Source: Nephromyces sp. MM_2019
Lineage: Eukaryota > Apicomplexa > Aconoidasida > Nephromycida
Assembly: GCA_015657535.1 (NCBI GenBank)
Contig: JADHZB010000522.1
Location: 453-64,452, forward strand
Reading direction: 5' to 3'
DNA length: 64,000 nucleotides
Shown here piece by piece: positions 2,329 to 47,236 of the stretch; positions within the stretch are counted from its first letter, which is position 1; each line of letters starts with the position of its first letter. Under the pieces are notes generated by a model, which saw only the letters and a list, made by a program, of their open reading frames with translations, did not search any database and was not told the origin of the DNA. Both the position numbers and the translations under genes were made by a program.

Positions 2329-3776
2329 TTATTTAGCATTCCCGATATAATTCTGCCGTAAGTACTTGAAAAGTTGTAAATTGAATGTAGAAGATCTTAA
2401 CGGAAAATCACTTGCTCCATAGCTATATACCGAATAATTCAATTTCTCGGGTTTGAGAGTCATCGTTTTTATTATTTTTTTAGTTTCTTCAAGCTGTTCT
2501 GAAGTTATTTGTGGTAAGGAAAAGGAATAATATGGTCGAAAATCTTCATTGAATGGTAGATAAACCATGACTAGAGAATGATTAGAGGCGTGATCAGGGT
2601 GGGGGAAAAGGGCCACTTGTCTTGGGTGAGAGTTACGTCTCCAAATATATCTACAGATTATAGCCCCTTGAGTTTGCTTTAAGCTTGTTACAATCGACTT
2701 GATCATATGCTCACTGAAACTATCACCAAACAGAGGGTGTACATAACTAGCTTTATCGAGTACTAATTCTCTTTTAAGCTGTGATAATGATATGGTACAG
2801 ATAAGTTTGAGACAGGGTAGTTCTGAGGTATTCTCTAGCCTGTCAGCTTCCTTAGAAGGAATCATCATACCCCCATACTCAAAAGATTTTACAGGGTATG
2901 AGTAAGAATATTTTATGTCAGCCTTGTTTCCAATAAATGATAAAGATCTGATTATTTTACCCAAGCATTTTCTTGATAATTCTTGTCGGATTCCAAAGGA
3001 TTTAATACCCAAAGTGTTTGTTGTAATTGGTGAAATTTGAATGGGTATCTTAAGGTGTTTTCCAATAACTAAACAATTGTGCTTTCTGTGTGAGGAAAAA
3101 GATATTCCAGGCTGTAAGATAATTGGGTTATGGTCATGTTTTGGATTGATTATACTTATAAAAGTGTTGTTACAAGCAGATAAACTTTTTATATTATAGC
3201 TGTTGCATTGTTGCAATAAATCTTGATTAGTAGAGATAAAAAAAAGTTTAAGAACAATTTTATTTGCTAGTAGCTGATCAGCTATTAGGTGGAAATCTTT
3301 TGCATTCAAATATGAGTTCTCTAATGAAGTAAAATAAAATATTGATGACTGGGTCTGCAAATAAATGTCATGTTTTTCTATTTCAGGTTTATGAAATAAA
3401 TCTCATAACTCACTTTTGGTGCAGGGTTCATATCTATTAGTTTATATAGGGCTATTATTATTGCCAGTTTCCAGTCATTACTTCCAGTCGAGAATTCTGT
3501 GTTATAAATAGACTCAACTAAGTTATTAAATTTGAGGAGTTCAATTGGGCAAGCTAAAGTGAATTCAGAAAAATTCTCCAATGTATCAGAATGATGTATT
3601 CCATCAGAAAAGAGTAGTCCAAGCTTAAGGGATGGTTTGAAAAGCATAGATTGTCTTATGAAATCAAGGATCACAATTTTTAGTAGTTCAAAGTTTTCAG
3701 TGAGGTAGCTAAAATCAAACTTATTTTGTTTATTTATTGTTCGGTTAAATATCACTATTCCAATTTCGTTTTCCAT
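2329..3776 (-). CDS. Ku-type DNA-end-binding protein (Ku80-like)
   Basis: Two exons, 3776-3414 and 3354-2329, are joined at a phase-0 GTGAGT donor and a TTTGCAG acceptor, giving 462 residues. Residues 1 to about 210 read as the N-terminal von Willebrand A-like domain of Ku. The rest matches the Ku beta-barrel core: a K-S-F-x-Y-G-G/IPSKEADR stretch, an AIICRYIWRRNSHPRQVALFP segment (one of the clearest Ku matches, A-I-V-R-Y...P-x-V-x-x-L-x-P) and YLPFNEDFRPYYSF, which is closest to the LPF-x-EDLRQY-x-F motif of Ku80. Ku heterodimers encircle broken DNA ends and start non-homologous end joining. The C-terminal arm is short and there is no Ku80 DNA-PKcs-binding region or Ku70 SAP domain. Ku70 cannot be excluded from sequence alone. 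The partner subunit is not in the window. Confidence 0.85.
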
Positions 3777-8143: not shown

Positions 8144-10435
8144 ATTATGTAAGTTATCAATAATAGAACAAGAGTAAAAAAGTTTTATAAAAATGAAATT
8201 AATAATTTAAAAAATTTCAACGATTAGCTAAGTTTTTGCTAAGATCCTCATATTTGATAGGTAATAAAAATCATAAGTTGCTCAAATCTTAAGTTTATGG
8301 ATATTAATTCTACGAATTGAAGCGCACTGTTCTTATAACTAGTTTGCAATGATTACTGATAATTTACTTATTAGTATCTAAATCGTGCTTCTAGTGTTAG
8401 ATTAGTGATATTTTTAATATTCAATCTAAAATTTTTTAAGAGCATACATAGTATTGAAATAAAAGTATACTTTCCCGCTATAGCCTCTCAACTTTTAATC
8501 GTTTTAGGCAAGTTATGAGTTCAAATTTAAAGATTTTCATTATTAGTCTCATTATGAGTGAAAAATAGTTTCCAGTATTTAATTAGCAAAACAAGCCATT
8601 CAAGGAACTGAATATTAATAAGCTTGAAGTAGATTCTTTTAAATCATAATGACTTAATTTAAAACTAATTTTGAAATTTAATAATACACTTTTAGCGTGA
8701 AATAGAAAACTTAAATATGAGTAGTTATATAAATTATTAAACATAAATCTAAATAATTTCAAGAGTCCAATATGAACCTTTCATAAACATTCCAATTACT
8801 TCCAAAGAAAATTTAAGAGAAAGATTATATTTTTGTTAATAACTTGTTTGGCTCCGAGTTTGACGCTTTTAGCTAAAATATGCCAATCATTGAATTAATA
8901 TAGGGAATGGATTAAAAACCCATCTAGGATTATAAAGTTGAATGGGTTGGATTGCATGTTTTAAGTGTTCCACCAATTTTTTTTATTGTATTCTGAAACT
9001 TTATAAATTTTCTGAAATGTACAAGTTAAAATATCCTAAAATGTTATTTAGATTTTTTGTGTTAATAATATATGATCAAGTCTTTTAGACCCTCAAATTG
9101 ATAGTGAGAGAAGCAGTTTTAGCTCTTACTTATAAAGATAGGGATTTTAATCACAGTTCTAAAACATGTTCTCAACAAAGTGTTACAAAATAGGTTGCTT
9201 GCTTAAATGAGTGTTAATAACAATAGAATAGATACAATTAGTATCAAGATTTTTAATGTTTTACCTGCTGAATTTTGGTGGATTATTTACATTAGCTTTA
9301 ACTACCAAATATTTAATTTAAGTATTCTTTTCAACACAGTAGTATCCTTGGAGTCTTAGCCATCATTAGTTATACTTAGTAAACCACTAGCTTAAAATGG
9401 GATTTATTTCAAGCTTATGCCGAAACAATAAGATTTCTCGTAAATTTTATATATTGCAAAAATATTTCGGTGATACAAATGCCTTAAATTCTCATATAAA
9501 TTCATTTTTGATTTCTTAGAAAAATCAGCTGTGCAATATAGCTAACTTTGAAAAAAATTTTATAAAAAGATTCTATTCCCTTTATTTGATAAATCAATAA
9601 TTTATAGATCAAACTCCTAAATTTATTTTTCTCCTCGTGTGATTAAAAATCTAGTTGCTAAGTTTAAATGCTCCTGGAATCTTGGACAAATCTTTTGTTG
9701 AAAGTATTATTATAACAATAAACTCAGGTTACTATATCTGGAGATATTAGAATCGTTGTGAATGCAAACAATATTAGCATAAGCATTTGTTTGAAAAGGA
9801 TAACGGGCTCTAGGTGCCCTTTCAAACCATGGGTAACAGCAATTAGCTACTTAGATCTTAACTTGTTTAGTACTCTATTTAGAGTTTTAGCTCTACATTA
9901 ATCACGCTAAAGGCTTTAAATAGATTCTGTCTTTATCCTTTGCATCCTAGAGCTATGTGAGAAGTTTTGTTGTGTAAACTCTCAAAGCTACATCCTTGGT
10001 AAATGCATAAAGGGTGTCAAATCCCAGTACAGTAAATACATTGTGAAGGTGGTCAAAATTTTGTTAGCGTTTAAACTTGTTAACACCCAAACTACATCTA
10101 GAACTTGCTAGCTATTTAAATATGAGTGATAAAATGCTCTTAAATAAATTTGACAATAGCTAAGTTCTAATTTACACCTCTTTTGCTAGAAAATGCTAGC
10201 ACTAACAGATAGCTAACTCACTTTCTTTACTTGCTTTTATAATGCTATCAAAACTAGAGCCAAAATTTACTTGTCCAAAAAAAAAGGATTTAATATTCAA
10301 CAACATTTTTATAACTACACATTGAATGTATTAAAACTCGTTCTTTTATGATCTTGTATCGAGAACTAAGCCATTTTCTTTTGATTAAATATTAACTAGG
10401 ACCTCTTGACGCCTTAAAACAATTAAGATAAGGAG
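8144..10435. other. intergenic, about 2.3 kb
   Basis: AT-rich DNA dense in stops on all frames. Several short inverted repeats occur, such as TGCTAG/CTAGCA near 10185-10203 and GGGC/GCCC near 9806-9820. None has a recognisable RNA family signature. The stretch should contain the promoter of UTP21. Confidence 0.55.
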
Positions 10436-13261
10436 ATGGATAGCAACAACAAATCTTTCCTGAAAAAACAATGGAGCTATGATTCTGTGGTCCGTCCTTC
10501 TCATTCTGTTGGATTATTAACTGATGGGTCTGTTGCGAAGGCTTTTCAGGATGGTAAGAGAGCGCTATTGATAACCAGTATCGGACCACAATACTCATTA
10601 TATGAGAGCCCCAACCTCAATCTAGTAATGAGAAGCCCCCTTTTGAATGCTCAACAGACTTCAAATCCTTTTATCATTCATGCTATAGCTGCTGACTTAA
10701 AACAAAACATAATATATGCTGCATCCGGTAACACAATCTTTGCTTTTCATCGCTTTGATCAATTATTTACCCTTAAAGGCCAAGAATCAAATATAACTGA
10801 GCTTTTATTGATCGGGGATCTCCTAATTTCATCAAGTGGCAATGATATAATTATTTGGTCTTTATCAGCATATAATTTTTCAAAAAACAGATACAAAGGT
10901 CTCTCAACACCTCCATATGAAGTTCTTCTAACACTACCAAAAAATTCACTTGCAAGTTCCGAGAGAATATTTTCTATTCTTCACCCTCCTACCTACATAA
11001 ACAAGCTGATTATAGCTTACATCCCTTCTCGATTTGAGATTTGGAATTTCAAAACAAAAAGAAAAGTATATGAACTGCAATGCTTTCCTAAAAAATTCCT
11101 TAACTCGAATATTACTGCTGCCATACTCAATGAAAGTCACTCTGACATGTTAGCTGTTGCATATGAGTGCGGTAAAATTTTTATTATTGATATTAAAAGA
11201 GATGAAATCCTATTAGAATTCACCCAGTCTTTACATCTTGGTAAAATTACTCGTTTGCTATTTTGGGACAACTCTTCACATACTCATGACGAAAAAAGTC
11301 TCCTACTGACCTCAACAAGTGATGGTCATATCGTACAATGGGACCTGAATAATGGCTCTTTAAAGTCTTTTCATGAAGGAGCTCACAGCTCCAAAATTAT
11401 ATGTTTATCTCTTATTATCAGTCACAATGTCATATTAACTGTCGGTACTGATAATGCTATAAAGCTTTGGACTTTTGATTCTTTTAATTCTGAATTCTAC
11501 TTGGTTAAATCTAGGTGTGGTCAACCTCGACCTATAAACAACTTCGATTTCTATGGTAACGACATGCTAACCCTCCTCACTTCTAGTTCTGATAACAAAG
11601 TTGGCTATTTGGGCTTAACTTCTTTAATTCAGCAACAGCAAAACATTATATTTTCAAAAAAGAATGCTCCCAAGAACCTTTTCTCACATGCTAACAAAAT
11701 CCCACCTATTAATAAAATGGCTTTCATATATCTACGCCACTACGATTGGCCAAATATTGTTACTTGTCATAAAGGTTTCCATCAATGCCTAATATGGAGT
11801 GGATTTTCTCGCACATTAACACCTACCACACTTAGTTTAACTGGTCATAAGCCTATTGCGACTGCCCTATCTATATCTCCCTGTGGAAACATTGTTTGCG
11901 TAGGCTATGAAGATGGTAAAATTGCGAGATATAATCTCCAATCCCAAGAACTTAGGGGAAATTTTGTCAACAGTGATAATACAAACAAGAATGCTCATAA
12001 TTATGCTGTTTCCCAATTAGAATTTACACATTCGTCACTCTTATTGTCAACTTCTAAGCACCCTAAGGAAGCTTCACTTTTTGCATGGGTGATAGACAAC
12101 TACTCTCTCTCATACTCAATTGATTTAGAATCCAGTGGTCACGGAATAGACACTTTCATTACTTCTGGTGCTCTCGTATCTATAGCTTTGCAAAATGGTA
12201 ATATAATAATTTGTGACCTAATATCCCGCAGCGCTATAAGAACTTTTTATTTCAACTCTGCTATAAATAGCATGACCTTTGGTATGGATGGAAGACTCTT
12301 TTTCGTTGCTACTAAGGAATCCGAAATTTTATGTTATGACATGTTTTCTTCTTCACTCATAGATTGGTTAAAGCTACCATCCTCAGCTCTCTGTATTAAA
12401 TTTCAAAACATGACTCAACAATTAATATCTTCGCATCAAGATTTACAAGGCCTTTTAGTTTGGAATATACAATATGACATCACTTTTAATTCTAACAATC
12501 ATCTTCAACAACCATCCGAACCAATTGAAATAAATTGGGCTTTCAAGCCCATCAAAAATCTTGATTCAAAACCCAATTCCAGCATAGATAGCATAACGAC
12601 AAACGAATATCAGAAAAAACCTCCTACACAAATAACTAAAAGAGCGTTGACCCTTTCTGGCCTGAATTCTACTAAGACCTCCACCACTCTGAATCTTAAC
12701 CAAATCAAAGAGCAGAGTCGAATACAGACACACACATTAGTAGCTAAGGAAGCCCCCTTTTTCTTGAATTTTTCAACACTAAAATTTGCAACAGGAGAAG
12801 CTAATGCAATTGCAACCAGAACTCCAGAAAAGGAAATTCATAATACTTCAAAGGAATCTCAGCTTCAACAACTCCTCTCTAAGCTTGACGCAAAAAATTG
12901 TGAAATAATTTCAAACGAAATATTACAATTTATGAAGAAACAATCACCATCTGCAGTACATTTTGAAATTAGCACTCTAGCAAGTATTTCGAATGGAGAA
13001 TATGACCAACTTGTACGGATGCTAAAATGTTTTATCTCTCTTGTAAGGACACGACAGGATGCTGACCTTGTCCAAATTTATCTTCAAATATTTATTAACA
13101 CTTACGCCAGCATATTGGCTAATGAGGAATTCCTTGGAATTGCTGCTGATTATATAGAGGCTTTAAGAAACCTTATATATGAAGATTGGAGATTGTATGA
13201 CCTCAAATTTTACAAAATATGTTGCAATCTAAAATTCATGACACATCTTCAATTAGAATAA
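10436..13261 (+). CDS. UTP21: UTP21 / WDR36-like WD40 protein of the SSU processome
   Basis: A single intronless ORF of 941 residues. The N-terminal two thirds are degenerate WD40 repeats forming a tandem beta-propeller (for example SDGHIVQWDLNNG, GTDNAIKLWTF, GHKPIATALSISPCGNIVC). The segment around residues 425-455 (RHYDWPNIVTCHKGFHQCLIW) matches the R-x-x-D-W-D-x-I-x-x-C-H region that links the two propellers in WDR36. The last 100 residues match the Utp21-specific C-terminal domain, with a leucine-rich helical pattern ending in E-D-W-R-L-Y-D-L. UTP21 belongs to the UTP-B complex, which binds U3 snoRNP and the 5' ETS of pre-18S rRNA in the nucleolus. It is the only long multidomain gene here without introns. 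Confidence 0.9.
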   Translation: MDSNNKSFLKKQWSYDSVVRPSHSVGLLTDGSVAKAFQDGKRALLITSIGPQYSLYESPNLNLVMRSPLLNAQQTSNPFIIHAIAADLKQNIIYAASGNTIFAFHRFDQLFTLKGQESNITELLLIGDLLISSSGNDIIIWSLSAYNFSKNRYKGLSTPPYEVLLTLPKNSLASSERIFSILHPPTYINKLIIAYIPSRFEIWNFKTKRKVYELQCFPKKFLNSNITAAILNESHSDMLAVAYECGKIFIIDIKRDEILLEFTQSLHLGKITRLLFWDNSSHTHDEKSLLLTSTSDGHIVQWDLNNGSLKSFHEGAHSSKIICLSLIISHNVILTVGTDNAIKLWTFDSFNSEFYLVKSRCGQPRPINNFDFYGNDMLTLLTSSSDNKVGYLGLTSLIQQQQNIIFSKKNAPKNLFSHANKIPPINKMAFIYLRHYDWPNIVTCHKGFHQCLIWSGFSRTLTPTTLSLTGHKPIATALSISPCGNIVCVGYEDGKIARYNLQSQELRGNFVNSDNTNKNAHNYAVSQLEFTHSSLLLSTSKHPKEASLFAWVIDNYSLSYSIDLESSGHGIDTFITSGALVSIALQNGNIIICDLISRSAIRTFYFNSAINSMTFGMDGRLFFVATKESEILCYDMFSSSLIDWLKLPSSALCIKFQNMTQQLISSHQDLQGLLVWNIQYDITFNSNNHLQQPSEPIEINWAFKPIKNLDSKPNSSIDSITTNEYQKKPPTQITKRALTLSGLNSTKTSTTLNLNQIKEQSRIQTHTLVAKEAPFFLNFSTLKFATGEANAIATRTPEKEIHNTSKESQLQQLLSKLDAKNCEIISNEILQFMKKQSPSAVHFEISTLASISNGEYDQLVRMLKCFISLVRTRQDADLVQIYLQIFINTYASILANEEFLGIAADYIEALRNLIYEDWRLYDLKFYKICCNLKFMTHLQLE

Positions 13262-37057: not shown

Positions 37058-39682
37058 TTAGTTATTCATTTTGTGTTGATCTGCATGAAGTTTGGCTGAA
37101 ATGGTTTGAATGTCTATACGTCCTTCAAGTTGCATGTCGGCCTTTGGGGTGAAAGTGAGAGAAAATATTTTAATTTTATATTCGTGATTAAAATAGAGTA
37201 GAAGTTGACAGAGGTAAATAGCTAGATAACTTACAATGGTGTTTTTTGACAAATTTCCATCACTGAAACAAAAGTAGTCCATCTCATCCCTGGCTCTCGA
37301 GTGGCTCAATCTTTAGAATAAGAATTATATGTGATAAAAACATGAAATTTTCAATCATAATAGTTGTATCTAATAGAATAGCTTTAGAATCAAAACATAC
37401 GCTAAACTCAACAGATCAGCTGGAGAATGTATTCTCTTAACAAAATCAAAGAATTCCTCTGCCCAGTTGATCTGATCTAATTGCCTTTGTGATTCTATTT
37501 GATCACTCAGAACGCAGCTCATTTTGAGCTCTGCTAAATGCTAAAATTCTGTTTAGTAATGAACTGGTTAGGTTGAATCATAAACTACCTGTAGCTGGCT
37601 CATAGTATTTTCTAATAAAGAGTAGCAAGTTCCTTCTACACTCGAAATATTTTCTTGTACTTGACTGAATTGGTGAAATGACGCTTATTTAAAGGTATCT
37701 GAGAGGAAAAACTTTGCTTAAAAGTCTAACTCAATCTTTTCATCAACAAGGGATAAAAGTTCATCCAATTTATCTTTTCTAGCTTGCAGGATTGGATGTC
37801 TAGTTTTAGATTGTTCCAATTCAGCTTTAAAAACCTTTTCTAATGGAATTATAGTTCCATTTTCTATGGAAAAAGAAATTTCAATTTTAATTTTGTGAAA
37901 GTTTTTGTATTTTAATCGTGATTAGAAAGCACATAAATCTTACGGCAAGTTTTGTCGAAAAAGGAATGATTTGATGCATCCACGTGTAAGTGTTTTGGTA
38001 TGCAAACTTGGCATACGGGAAGTTCACAAGCAATACAAAAAGAATCACAAATTTCATTTGCATGAAATTTACAATAGCCATTGCTTCTGTTCCTCTATAA
38101 AACAATTTTGAATTTTATGTTTTCACTTAGATTATTTCCCTTTTAAATATTTCAAATTCGGTAAACCTCGTTTATAGGAACCCTTATGTGTCTTGAGACA
38201 ACTCGGTTTTGGCTGTGTAGATATTGATCACATTGTTGACATAACCTGATGTTTTGTAAACAATTTCACTCAAAAATTTGAAAGACTCAAATATTAGTTA
38301 AAATTACTTTGCTTTATCTGATTGGCACCAGATAAGTGAAGGTGCATTTTGACAGTTATCGCAAAATGGAACAGCAAAAACTTCATCGTATGATGGGTCA
38401 CATTCAAACTGGATAAGATATCGGGGTAGTACCTGATTTATTTAATTTATGATTCTAGTTATTTTTAGGTAGATTGATTTTCAATCTTTATAAGAATATC
38501 TAATTTTAACAATATGTTATGTTTAAGTAACCTTACTTGTGAAGAACTGTAGACAATGTACTCGTAATTGAAAGTATATTGTGGCAAAACTCCCAGCACA
38601 GCATTTTCGTCGTTTTCTTCATTATCCTTAGGATCATCAAAGATTTGTTTGTGCAAGGTGTAGCAAGGCACAAAACTAGCAGTCTGAGCTATTAAGGCAC
38701 TATCATACTCCGGTGGTAGTGCAAATTTTGAAGACAAGGTATCTTTATCAATGACATAGCTTCTGCCTACACCTTTTGAATAATTAGTAACACATAATTT
38801 TAAAAAATTAATAGACTTGTTTCTAATTAAATTAAACTATGTAATTTATAGATTAGCAAGCTAGAAGATGTGTCTTTTATCTGATAGTTACATATTTCGC
38901 AGATGAGGTACTCATGAATTTGCCTTTCTCCAGAAATTATTTGCATTGTTGTGAGATTCTTAGGCAACTTCTGACTACCTAACCAATTTAAAACGTGCAA
39001 ATAAAGCTTAAGAATTATGAGTCTTAGTTTACTATAATCTCAAAACAGTTTGAACTTTTCTTGGGACTATTTATTTATGAAATTCAATATTCACTGTTCT
39101 CAGAGCTGTATTTGATTATACAACTTTATATACGAATTACTTAACTTACTGTGCTCATCTTTCAAATATTCGTATTCGTTCAAGTGCATTAATGGTAATC
39201 CTGGGACACTGAATATTTTATTATTTTTAAATGATTATAGAAATAAATTCAATTGATAATTTTCTCAATTAATGCAGCTAGGAATTATTCACTATAACAA
39301 ACCTGAAATTCCCAACAAAGAACTTCATTCCACTTTCATCAACCTTAAAACCTCTTCTGCAGATCTGCTGAATAGTATTATCCTCTTGTAATTCAAGGGT
39401 ATCAACAAACGAGTATAAAATTAGCCTTCCCTGTTTTCACAAGACTTTTATTAAATATAACAGCAATCTCAAAAACAAAGCGAAGTTTACCTCACTTCTT
39501 TTGTTGAAATTACTCAAAACGTGGGTAGGGCTTATATGCCACGCCTGTTTTAACTTTACCCTCGAAGTACGTGTATGTAGATGAAGCAGGTACTCAACAA
39601 TAGACCACTCTTCAGACTCGAAATGTATAGCACTCCATCTAATATCATTTGGTCTTACTTCACTACCCAAATTTGTGTCCAT
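37058..39682 (-). CDS. PARP-like ADP-ribosyltransferase domain fused to tandem B-box zinc fingers and a coiled coil
   Basis: Thirteen exons: 39682-39491, 39430-39303, 39208-39150, 38978-38892, 38772-38537, 38432-38308, 38245-38167, 38094-37944, 37863-37731, 37664-37589, 37540-37401, 37304-37235, 37141-37058; 519 residues. Residues 45-257 follow the PARP catalytic fold from R-L-I-L-Y-S-F-V-D-T to I-H-E-Y-L-I-C-E-I-C-V-G-R-S and Y-E-Y-I-V-Y-S-S-S-Q-V-L-P-R-Y-L-I. The catalytic Glu (E226) is kept. The HG[S/T] His is replaced (L-Y-S-F at about 69-72), and the second-triad Tyr region reads F-F-V-G-N-F, so activity is doubtful. B-box 1 (258-295) has C-x2-C-x8-C-x2-D-x4-C-x2-C-D-x3-H. B-box 2 (310-345) has C-x2-H, C/C pairs and closing His. 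A coiled coil (about 355-430) completes a TRIM-like order. No RING is present. I do not know a described protein with this order. A reader or scaffold for ADP-ribose signalling or ubiquitin pathways is inference. Confidence 0.85.
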
Positions 39683-44259: not shown

Positions 44260-45264
44260 TTATGATTTTATGTATTGGTTTGAAAGTAAATCTTGAGTAG
44301 ATTTAGCAAAATCTTCTTTACTTAACCAACACACCCGTTTACCATTCACCCAAAGTGCTGCCCTACTTTCACCATTTTTATTAGTATAAATCCCTTTGCC
44401 ATGCTGTTCGCCTGCCTTCCATTCACCAGCATAACTGGAACCTTGAGGCCATGACATCTTACCAAATCCTTCTTTCAAGTCTTTAGAGTAATGACCTATG
44501 TAAACGCAGTTGTCTGGCCACGTGAATACCCCCTCTCCCATCAACACACCAGCTACCCAATCCCCTTCGTAGGATCTTCCATCTCTCCATTTATAAATAC
44601 CTTTACCGTTAATAATATTATTAGAGAATTCACCTTTATAAGAATTTCCATCATTCCAAATCATTTCTCCATAACCATTCTTCATATTATTAACATAATT
44701 ACCTTTAAAAAGCGACCCATCTGCCCAATATTCCACTCCTTCTCCATGTTTTTTATCATCTTCCCATTGTCCTTTGTATACTGATTTGTCTGTGTGTTGG
44801 AATTCACCATATCCTTCAGCCTTATCATTTTTCCATTGACCTTTATACTTCTCACCATCAGGTGAAGTAAATATCCCTTCACCATAGGCACGATCACTCT
44901 TCCATTCACCCTCATACTTGGAGCCATCGGGCCATACTTGAATTCCATGGCCATATTTTTTACTTCCTGCCCATTGACCATCGTAGACTACATCACCCTC
45001 AAGTTTAGTTAGTGGTCTTTTGACCAAGGTTACTGAACTTCCAATGCTTTTTGATTTGTCAATACTTACCAGTCCCGAATCATTAGTTTCAGATTTTTCC
45101 TTTGTAATATTTTCATCCTTTACTATTTCTCCTTCAAATTTGGGCTCAGTATGTGAACTTGGTAATTGGGAATTTTCTTTTTGTTGGCTCTGGATTACCT
45201 GTTTCACTGGAGAAGGTCTTTCCGGAGATTTTACTTTTTTTGTCTTTGATACACAATTGCCCAT
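44260..45264 (-). CDS. MORN-repeat protein with N-terminal acylation signal
   Basis: Single exon, 334 residues. The start MGNCVSK has Gly2 for N-myristoylation and Cys4 for palmitoylation, the pattern used by apicomplexan inner-membrane-complex and plasma-membrane proteins. After a Lys/Ser-rich linker (8-90), nine consecutive 23-residue MORN repeats run from about 95 to 301 (Y-x-G-x-W-x-x-x-x-x-x-G-x-G-x-x-x-W-x-x-G), with a tenth degenerate one. MORN repeats bind lipids and act as membrane-linked scaffolds. A role at the pellicle or in daughter-cell budding is inference from the family. No catalytic domain is attached. Confidence 0.93.
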   Translation of the reverse strand: MGNCVSKTKKVKSPERPSPVKQVIQSQQKENSQLPSSHTEPKFEGEIVKDENITKEKSETNDSGLVSIDKSKSIGSSVTLVKRPLTKLEGDVVYDGQWAGSKKYGHGIQVWPDGSKYEGEWKSDRAYGEGIFTSPDGEKYKGQWKNDKAEGYGEFQHTDKSVYKGQWEDDKKHGEGVEYWADGSLFKGNYVNNMKNGYGEMIWNDGNSYKGEFSNNIINGKGIYKWRDGRSYEGDWVAGVLMGEGVFTWPDNCVYIGHYSKDLKEGFGKMSWPQGSSYAGEWKAGEQHGKGIYTNKNGESRAALWVNGKRVCWLSKEDFAKSTQDLLSNQYIKS

Positions 45265-47236
45265 GCTTACGGACTATTTAAATCATCTGTTTTTTTTAAT
45301 AGGGCTCTGTATGATTTATATACAAAATCACATAAGTATCCTGGTGCAATCCTTAAGATTATTTGTAAAATAAGAAAACAATATGAAATTCGCTTTCAAT
45401 TTTGGTCAAAAAAATTTATTTGAATCATTACTAGACAAAGCCGAAATTTACATTCCCTTTTCGATAAAAAGGTTTAAATGTCTAAAAAATGTTCTCTAAT
45501 GATTAAAAGCATTTAATATAAAACAAAAGCTATACTCAACTCTATTAGGCAGTCTATATTAATAAGAATCTTAAATTTCAATTTGTTTCATAAAAGGTTT
45601 AATTTCAGTGTTTATTAATATTAAAGCAATAAAACCTAGAGGCAAATTTTAAAGAGGCATCACTCCTATTATATTAAAACGTCATAAAATGATAAATATA
45701 CAAACACAAATCATAACATGACTAAAATTATAAAAGGCTAAAAAGAATATTATTCCAACTTCGATAGCAGTGTACTTACTCTCTTTGTCTTAATTCTTGG
45801 ATCTGTTATATTTCCCTAAGACTAGGTTAATTTTCTCTTGTTGAATGTCTAATAGTGAGCTCTAATTTCCTGAAAATTCTAAAATAGGATAAATTACCTC
45901 GATAATAAAATATCATAAAATTTTCAAAGATTCTTGAGTTAAGCAATGATATAAGAAGCTATACAAAAAAAATATATATTCATAGAATGGTTACCACGAA
46001 TAATTAATATTAATTTAAGATTTAAAATTAAGGATGAATATTTTTGTTATGAGTTTTTATCGGAAGCTTGTTTAAACAATCTACGACACTTATAATAAGA
46101 ATTTCTGAAAAAGGAACTATAAAGTGTGAGTTATAAAACATGTAAGCTCAAAGTATTTCTCACAATATTAAGGTAGTAAGAGCATGTATAACAAAGTAAA
46201 CTATATAGAAAATGTGGCATAGTGTGACTACATACAAATTCGTATATACAGTTAAAGTAGCCTAATGTTGTTACATTATAGTTAGGATTAGGAATACAAC
46301 ATACGAAAGAAAAAGGCATGGTAGGGGGTCCAATTAATAAAATTGTGAGCTATAAACAATGTTGTATAAATAATAAAAATAAACTAATGTGATTATGGTA
46401 AGTTAGGTTTTACATAGATAACCTATCAATTCTTAAAATTATAAAACATGAAAAATTAGAACTGGGTATACTTAATCCTCTCTTAATATAAAAATGTAAT
46501 AATGTTATGAAAACCCTGGGTTTTATTACTCAAAATATATGCTTAAGACAAAACATAAATGGGAGGTTTGGCTGTATAATTCTTGGTTAATAATAGTATT
46601 TAAAATTTTTAAAGAGAGTTTAAACTTATTCATCGAGTCTAGTAGATCAGTTGTAAGTTTTCAATATCTTATACGTTTTTAAAAGATAATATTATCTTCA
46701 AGATGTTCCGAAATTAAAAAATATCCGTAAAAAAAAATTAAAGTTATAATCGTTTTATAGATTATATATGGGTATAAAATAGATCAATCGGTTTCCAATT
46801 AAAGTGGGTACAGTTCAGAATTCGAATTCTTGTATAAAAATCTAAATCAACCTTCTTATACAGAAGTATCAAATAGGAAATGATGTCTGCAGTTTCTTAC
46901 GAACAGTTGTTTCAAAAATAGAAATATAGTTTAAAAAAGGTATAGGTAAAAAATTTCCATAATAAATTTGTAGCTTATGTTAAAGAAACAATCTGGAATT
47001 TGAAATATCATTTCGGTAAATAATATCAATAAAGATAAAGAAAATCAATATTACAATTACTTAAAATGATTAGAATCCCAAAATAAATATACAGTTGAGT
47101 CATCAAAGGTTGTACAGATGTTGTAGGAATACTGTAGTTGCTTATATTTTTGATAAAATTGGTATTTCTTGGTAGAATAATAAGATTACAATCTATTGGA
47201 ACAAGATTTGAAAAAGAGGTAGAATAAATAAAACGA
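45265..47236. other. intergenic, about 2.0 kb
   Basis: AT-rich. A short minus-strand stretch around 45790-45890 carries splice-like signals but no convincing exon. An open frame at 46131-46319 has no supporting signal. Nothing is called. Confidence 0.5.

Follow-up and report, generated by a model that had tools for sequence, protein, structure and literature searches.

The DNA considered here is a 64-kb window (the whole stretch of 64,000 nucleotides that was analysed) of contig JADHZB010000522.1 from Nephromyces sp. MM_2019, and all positions refer to this window. On its minus strand, at 37058..39682, lies a gene of 13 exons coding for 521 amino acids (aa), which on sequence homology is an ortholog of Toxoplasma gondii PCR4, a core protein of the preconoidal rings; a PARP-like domain is followed by two B-boxes and a helical C-terminal part. 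The exons (39682-39491, 39430-39303, 39208-39150, 38978-38892, 38772-38537, 38432-38308, 38245-38167, 38094-37944, 37863-37731, 37664-37589, 37540-37401, 37310-37235, and 37141-37058) are separated by 12 introns of 48-171 nucleotides (nt), all of GT-AG type, and the spliced frame is uninterrupted. The first-pass annotation of this DNA had given the same coordinates, strand and number of exons, and the spliced frame and the introns bear these out; its length of 519 aa differs, and was probably obtained with an acceptor 6 nt further on, by which "VG" is lost. The homologue search, the PDB search and the first Pfam scan (E <= 10) were made with an earlier model of 539 aa with a longer exon 4. That model was abandoned since exon 4 ended too late; the motif CxVGVGxS carried by homologues pointed to the better donor adopted here, and the Pfam scan was redone with the 521-aa model.

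Because the top PDB match was chain AB of 9ya0, which is Toxoplasma PCR4 (E 2e-129), with PCR5 next (E 9.5e-30), the gene is assigned to PCR4, to which it is nearer than to PCR5. Homology across nearly the entire length was found with PCR4 of Toxoplasma, Eimeria, Cyclospora, Plasmodium, and Theileria. In the protein database, 16 homologues, complete or partial, reached E <= 0.001, and a profile search of it gave 19 matches at E <= 0.01; when both were pooled, 27 proteins were obtained, 21 with apicomplexan names and 6 with the organism name missing. No relative named as coming from outside Apicomplexa was found by the profile search, in which shared 5-residue words were required and 7998 candidates were scored, so that absence elsewhere is not implied. 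In 13 full-length homologues (P0001-P0013) 89-99% of the query was covered (97-99% in eight of them). Because of this coverage the PARP-like and B-box exons are placed in one gene, as the first-pass annotation had it, and the domain order is, judged from these alignments, old and common to Apicomplexa. The first-pass statement that no described protein has the order PARP, B-box, coiled coil must be withdrawn, as PCR4 with the solved structure 9ya0 is the precedent. The gene itself is thus of an already known kind, and its PARP ancestry is the interesting part. T. gondii PCR4 matches two loci of the assembly, which is probably mixed: the window gene and a locus on contig C714. The latter (L020, C714:36500-45000) is another copy of PCR4, highly divergent, whose introns are longer and whose G+C is 39%, compared with about 30% in the window. 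In the tree, where branches are long and no starred set surrounds the window copy, this copy groups with Cardiosporidium (support 85/83), and the C714 copy adjoins both (82/83).

The PARP-like domain, of the ADP-ribosyltransferase fold (38379..39625, minus strand; residues ~20-252, split by introns), was recognized by Pfam, hhalign, and a homologue model. Pfam PARP was matched in all 14 family members at E <= 10 (best E 8.7e-5), comparison of the family with PARP by hhalign gave P 8e-9, with shuffled controls at 0.009 or worse, and two family motifs match PARP4 with their order preserved. When a model of the Babesia duncani homologue was submitted to Foldseek, PARPs filled the structure lists. 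From the profile tests and the structure comparison, the latter made through the homologue, the N-terminal half is assigned the PARP catalytic fold, in agreement with the PARP-type fold proposed in the first-pass annotation. Several results weigh against this assignment. The window protein as a single sequence scored 16.3 bits against PF00644 (E 0.007), short of the gathering score of 26.7, and the Pfam PARP cut-off was passed by no member among the rows examined. Full-length T. gondii PCR4 had no PARP match at E <= 0.1, while the other five of the six proteins did match. Foldseek superpositions had a root-mean-square deviation of 7-15 Å across the whole alignment. The AlphaFold2 model, built from 23 sequences, is that of B. 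duncani P0015, which stands in for the window protein, and three stretches of its PARP-like domain have a predicted local distance difference test (pLDDT) score below 50; a model of T. gondii PCR4 from 16 sequences was unusable (mean pLDDT 45.3, residues 1-298 below 50). Single-sequence scores below the cut-off would suit a similarity arisen by chance or convergence in a domain of other origin, but an hhalign score far outside the shuffles, two PARP4 motifs in the same order, and lists of structures filled by PARPs make that explanation very improbable.

Catalysis by PARPs is defined by the H-Y-E triad. According to the family alignment, Tyr70 (39413..39415, minus strand) stands where PARPs have the catalytic His, hhalign pairing LLTY with LLWH there, and Glu226 (38561..38563, minus strand) stands where they have the catalytic Glu; the Tyr position falls on Lys100 if the G-x-x-F pattern guides the alignment, and on Phe101 with a shift of one residue. 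In the 14 alignment rows the His position is occupied by Y 4, K 4, E 3, D 2, and H 1 (the single His belonging to Cardiosporidium), the Tyr position by K 11, R 1, V 1, and L 1 (F 6, L 4, V 3, and I 1 when shifted by one), and the Glu position by E 10, D 2, and N 2 (both Asn in Theileria rows), and the C714 copy has H, K (or F), and T. With this copy included, an intact H-Y-E was found in none of the 15 sequences (His 2, Tyr 0, Glu 10), and the window protein, reading Y-K(or F)-E, does not belong to the PARP enzymes by their triad. The broken triad with its missing His had been recognized in the first-pass annotation; the Phe reported there for the Tyr position is obtained with the shifted alignment, Lys being given by the family alignment. 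The Glu reported there as kept is present, but since this position varies within the family (E, D, N, or T) it does not argue for activity. The same assembly contains a true PARP1/2-type gene in which the motifs LLWHG, GIYFAD, and NEYVVY are intact (L021, contig C249; 36% G+C, long introns), and the segment ahead of the Tyr strand is much shorter in the PCR4 family than in this PARP.

An active mono-ADP-ribosyltransferase of unusual chemistry, one of two alternatives in the first-pass annotation, could call on Glu226, but with His and Tyr missing from the window copy, H-Y-E in 0 of 15 sequences, and Asn for Glu in two Theileria rows, we give it almost no credence. Its other alternative, in which an inactive domain is coupled to a multimerising scaffold, is preferred. 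Such a domain might, though non-catalytic, bind nicotinamide adenine dinucleotide (NAD+), ADP-ribose, or an ADP-ribosylated protein and serve as a sensor or reader in the ring: the homologue model shows predicted counterparts of the strands that bear the pocket in PARPs, Cardiosporidium and the C714 copy retain His, and 10 of 14 rows retain Glu. However, all three triad positions vary, including charged K, E, and D at the His place, the segment leading up to the Tyr strand is greatly shortened relative to the C249 PARP, and PCR4/5 are described in PMC12819142 as deeply embedded, likely structural subunits; a ligand reader is therefore considered unlikely. We read the PCR4 domain, from the residues at these positions, as a pseudo-PARP scaffold and not as an enzyme.

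B-box 1 (38188..38363, minus strand; residues 258-295) is encoded by two exons and corresponds to the best PF00643 stretch (256-300), and B-box 2 (37984..38073, minus strand; residues ~310-339, limits set by eye) to a second stretch, the score being 34.4 bits against a cut-off of 24.1. The two profile searches suggested in the first-pass annotation thus differed in outcome, the B-box profile (PF00643) being over its cut-off and the single-sequence PARP profile (PF00644) below. B-box 1 best matches plant CONSTANS B-boxes (41.7-45.4 bits each) and B-box 2 matches TRIM63 (30.2 bits). The C-terminal helical/coiled-coil part (37058..37863, minus strand; residues ~353-521) could be aligned with PCR4 nearly to its end, and in the T. 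gondii PCR4 model long helices are predicted at 420-505 and 508-528, in blocks with pLDDT of about 51-84. No RING was found among the Pfam matches (E <= 10 with the 539-aa model, E <= 0.1 with the 521-aa model), and the protein is accordingly outside the TRIM/RBCC family as defined by an N-terminal RING. Two B-boxes, a coiled-coil part and the absence of RING, all noted in the first-pass annotation, were therefore recovered. The C-terminal GTPase-activating domain of PCR5 type had no Pfam match, and the protein ends at residue 521.

Our interpretation, held with high confidence, is that the gene encodes PCR4 and that its N-terminal PARP fold, having lost the NAD-handling triad, is now a rigid structural unit of the ring. 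Pairing of PCR4 with the homologous PCR5 would occur through the B-boxes and long helices. According to a cryo-electron microscopy paper (PMC12819142), two PCR4/5 heterodimers make up the core of every repeat in the Toxoplasma P2 ring, for which 46 units were modelled, and filamin and COPII parts have been co-opted in preconoidal rings; in another paper (PMC12663574), loss of Pcr4 or Pcr5 removed the rings and blocked the start of gliding. The P2 ring of Toxoplasma carries a formin, a methyltransferase, and a myosin at the cell tip and is required for conoid extrusion and gliding. By analogy, the ring location, heterodimer, and essentiality should hold in this organism too; which parts of PCR4 and PCR5 pair, and the absence of a ligand from the pocket, we infer. 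PCR4 and PCR5 probably arose by duplication of an ancestral PARP fused to B-boxes. Since Cardiosporidium and the C714 copy retain His, one may speculate further that, after origin of both proteins from one PARP-B-box fusion, the dead pocket still binds NAD+ or ADP-ribose in at least some lineages and links the cell's NAD status to conoid extrusion or to the assembly of the ring, an improbable extension. No account of a PARP origin of PCR4/5 was found in the searched literature, though Extended Data Fig. 8 of PMC12819142 (a Foldseek domain assignment) may show one, and PARP is unmentioned in the main text of that paper. Preconoidal rings are the platform where apicomplexan gliding starts; descent from a pseudo-PARP would supply an ancestor for the ring core, could account for its shape, and would make it testable whether the pocket is empty.

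PCR5 seems to share the PARP fold, mainly because its Foldseek match spans 315 columns of the B. duncani homologue model. A PCR5-like locus was found at C898, where three open frames match the PARP-like profile with gene order kept (E 0.96, 0.83, and 0.0014 in a small search), only the last being above noise; the locus has a G+C of 36%, compared with ~30% for the window, and could thus come from a different organism. Contigs that could be tied to the organism of the window yielded no PCR5, and a B-box gene at C182 was dropped as a candidate, having by eye no resemblance to PCR5. RNA polymerase beta genes with in-frame TGA and 16-18% G+C are present at three loci (L026, L027, and L028 on C1112, C318, and C1009, respectively), and seem to represent several apicoplast genomes within the assembly. 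Because of these and a further, bacterial-looking polymerase beta locus of 47% G+C, the assembly is probably a mixed sample. A RING-like/B-box gene pair on contigs of 43% and 32% G+C (by eye) also speaks for mixture, the single UTP21 locus speaks against full mixture, and the 50 matches of a chaperonin family search are readable neither way.

Three other genes were noted in the window. A Ku70/Ku80 beta-barrel protein of 357 aa (E 2.7e-22) is encoded in a single open frame at 2332-3402 on the minus strand, and a second, distant locus is found at C935 (27% identity); Plasmodium is not known to have Ku. A WDR36/Utp21 protein of 944 aa is encoded at 10427-13258 on the plus strand by a single exon, versus 13 exons in PCR4, and a MORN-repeat protein of 337 aa (E 2.3e-50) at 44263-45273 on the minus strand by one open frame.

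Compared with known systems, the window protein has the B-box, B-box, coiled-coil order of TRIM proteins, including the TRIM63-like B-box 2, but it differs from them in the lack of RING, in the PARP fold in front, and in the CONSTANS-like B-box 1. With the PARP/ARTD family (PARP1, PARP4, tankyrase, PARP10, and PARP13, the last being an inactive PARP) it shares the fold of the catalytic domain and a C-terminal motif resembling EYxVYxxxQVxxxYL, whereas H-Y-E is missing, the part from the His strand to the Tyr strand is shortened, and B-boxes follow the fold. The PARP-like, B-box, and coil parts of PCR5 (TGME49_242320) are homologous to it, and the window protein stops after the coil part. T. gondii PCR4 (TGME49_201220; PDB 9ya0, core of preconoidal ring P2) has the same domain order with 42% identity over 557 alignment columns, and the window protein differs from it by a shorter stretch before the last PARP-like strands, Glu in place of Asp, and a shorter C-terminal tail (521 versus 603 aa).
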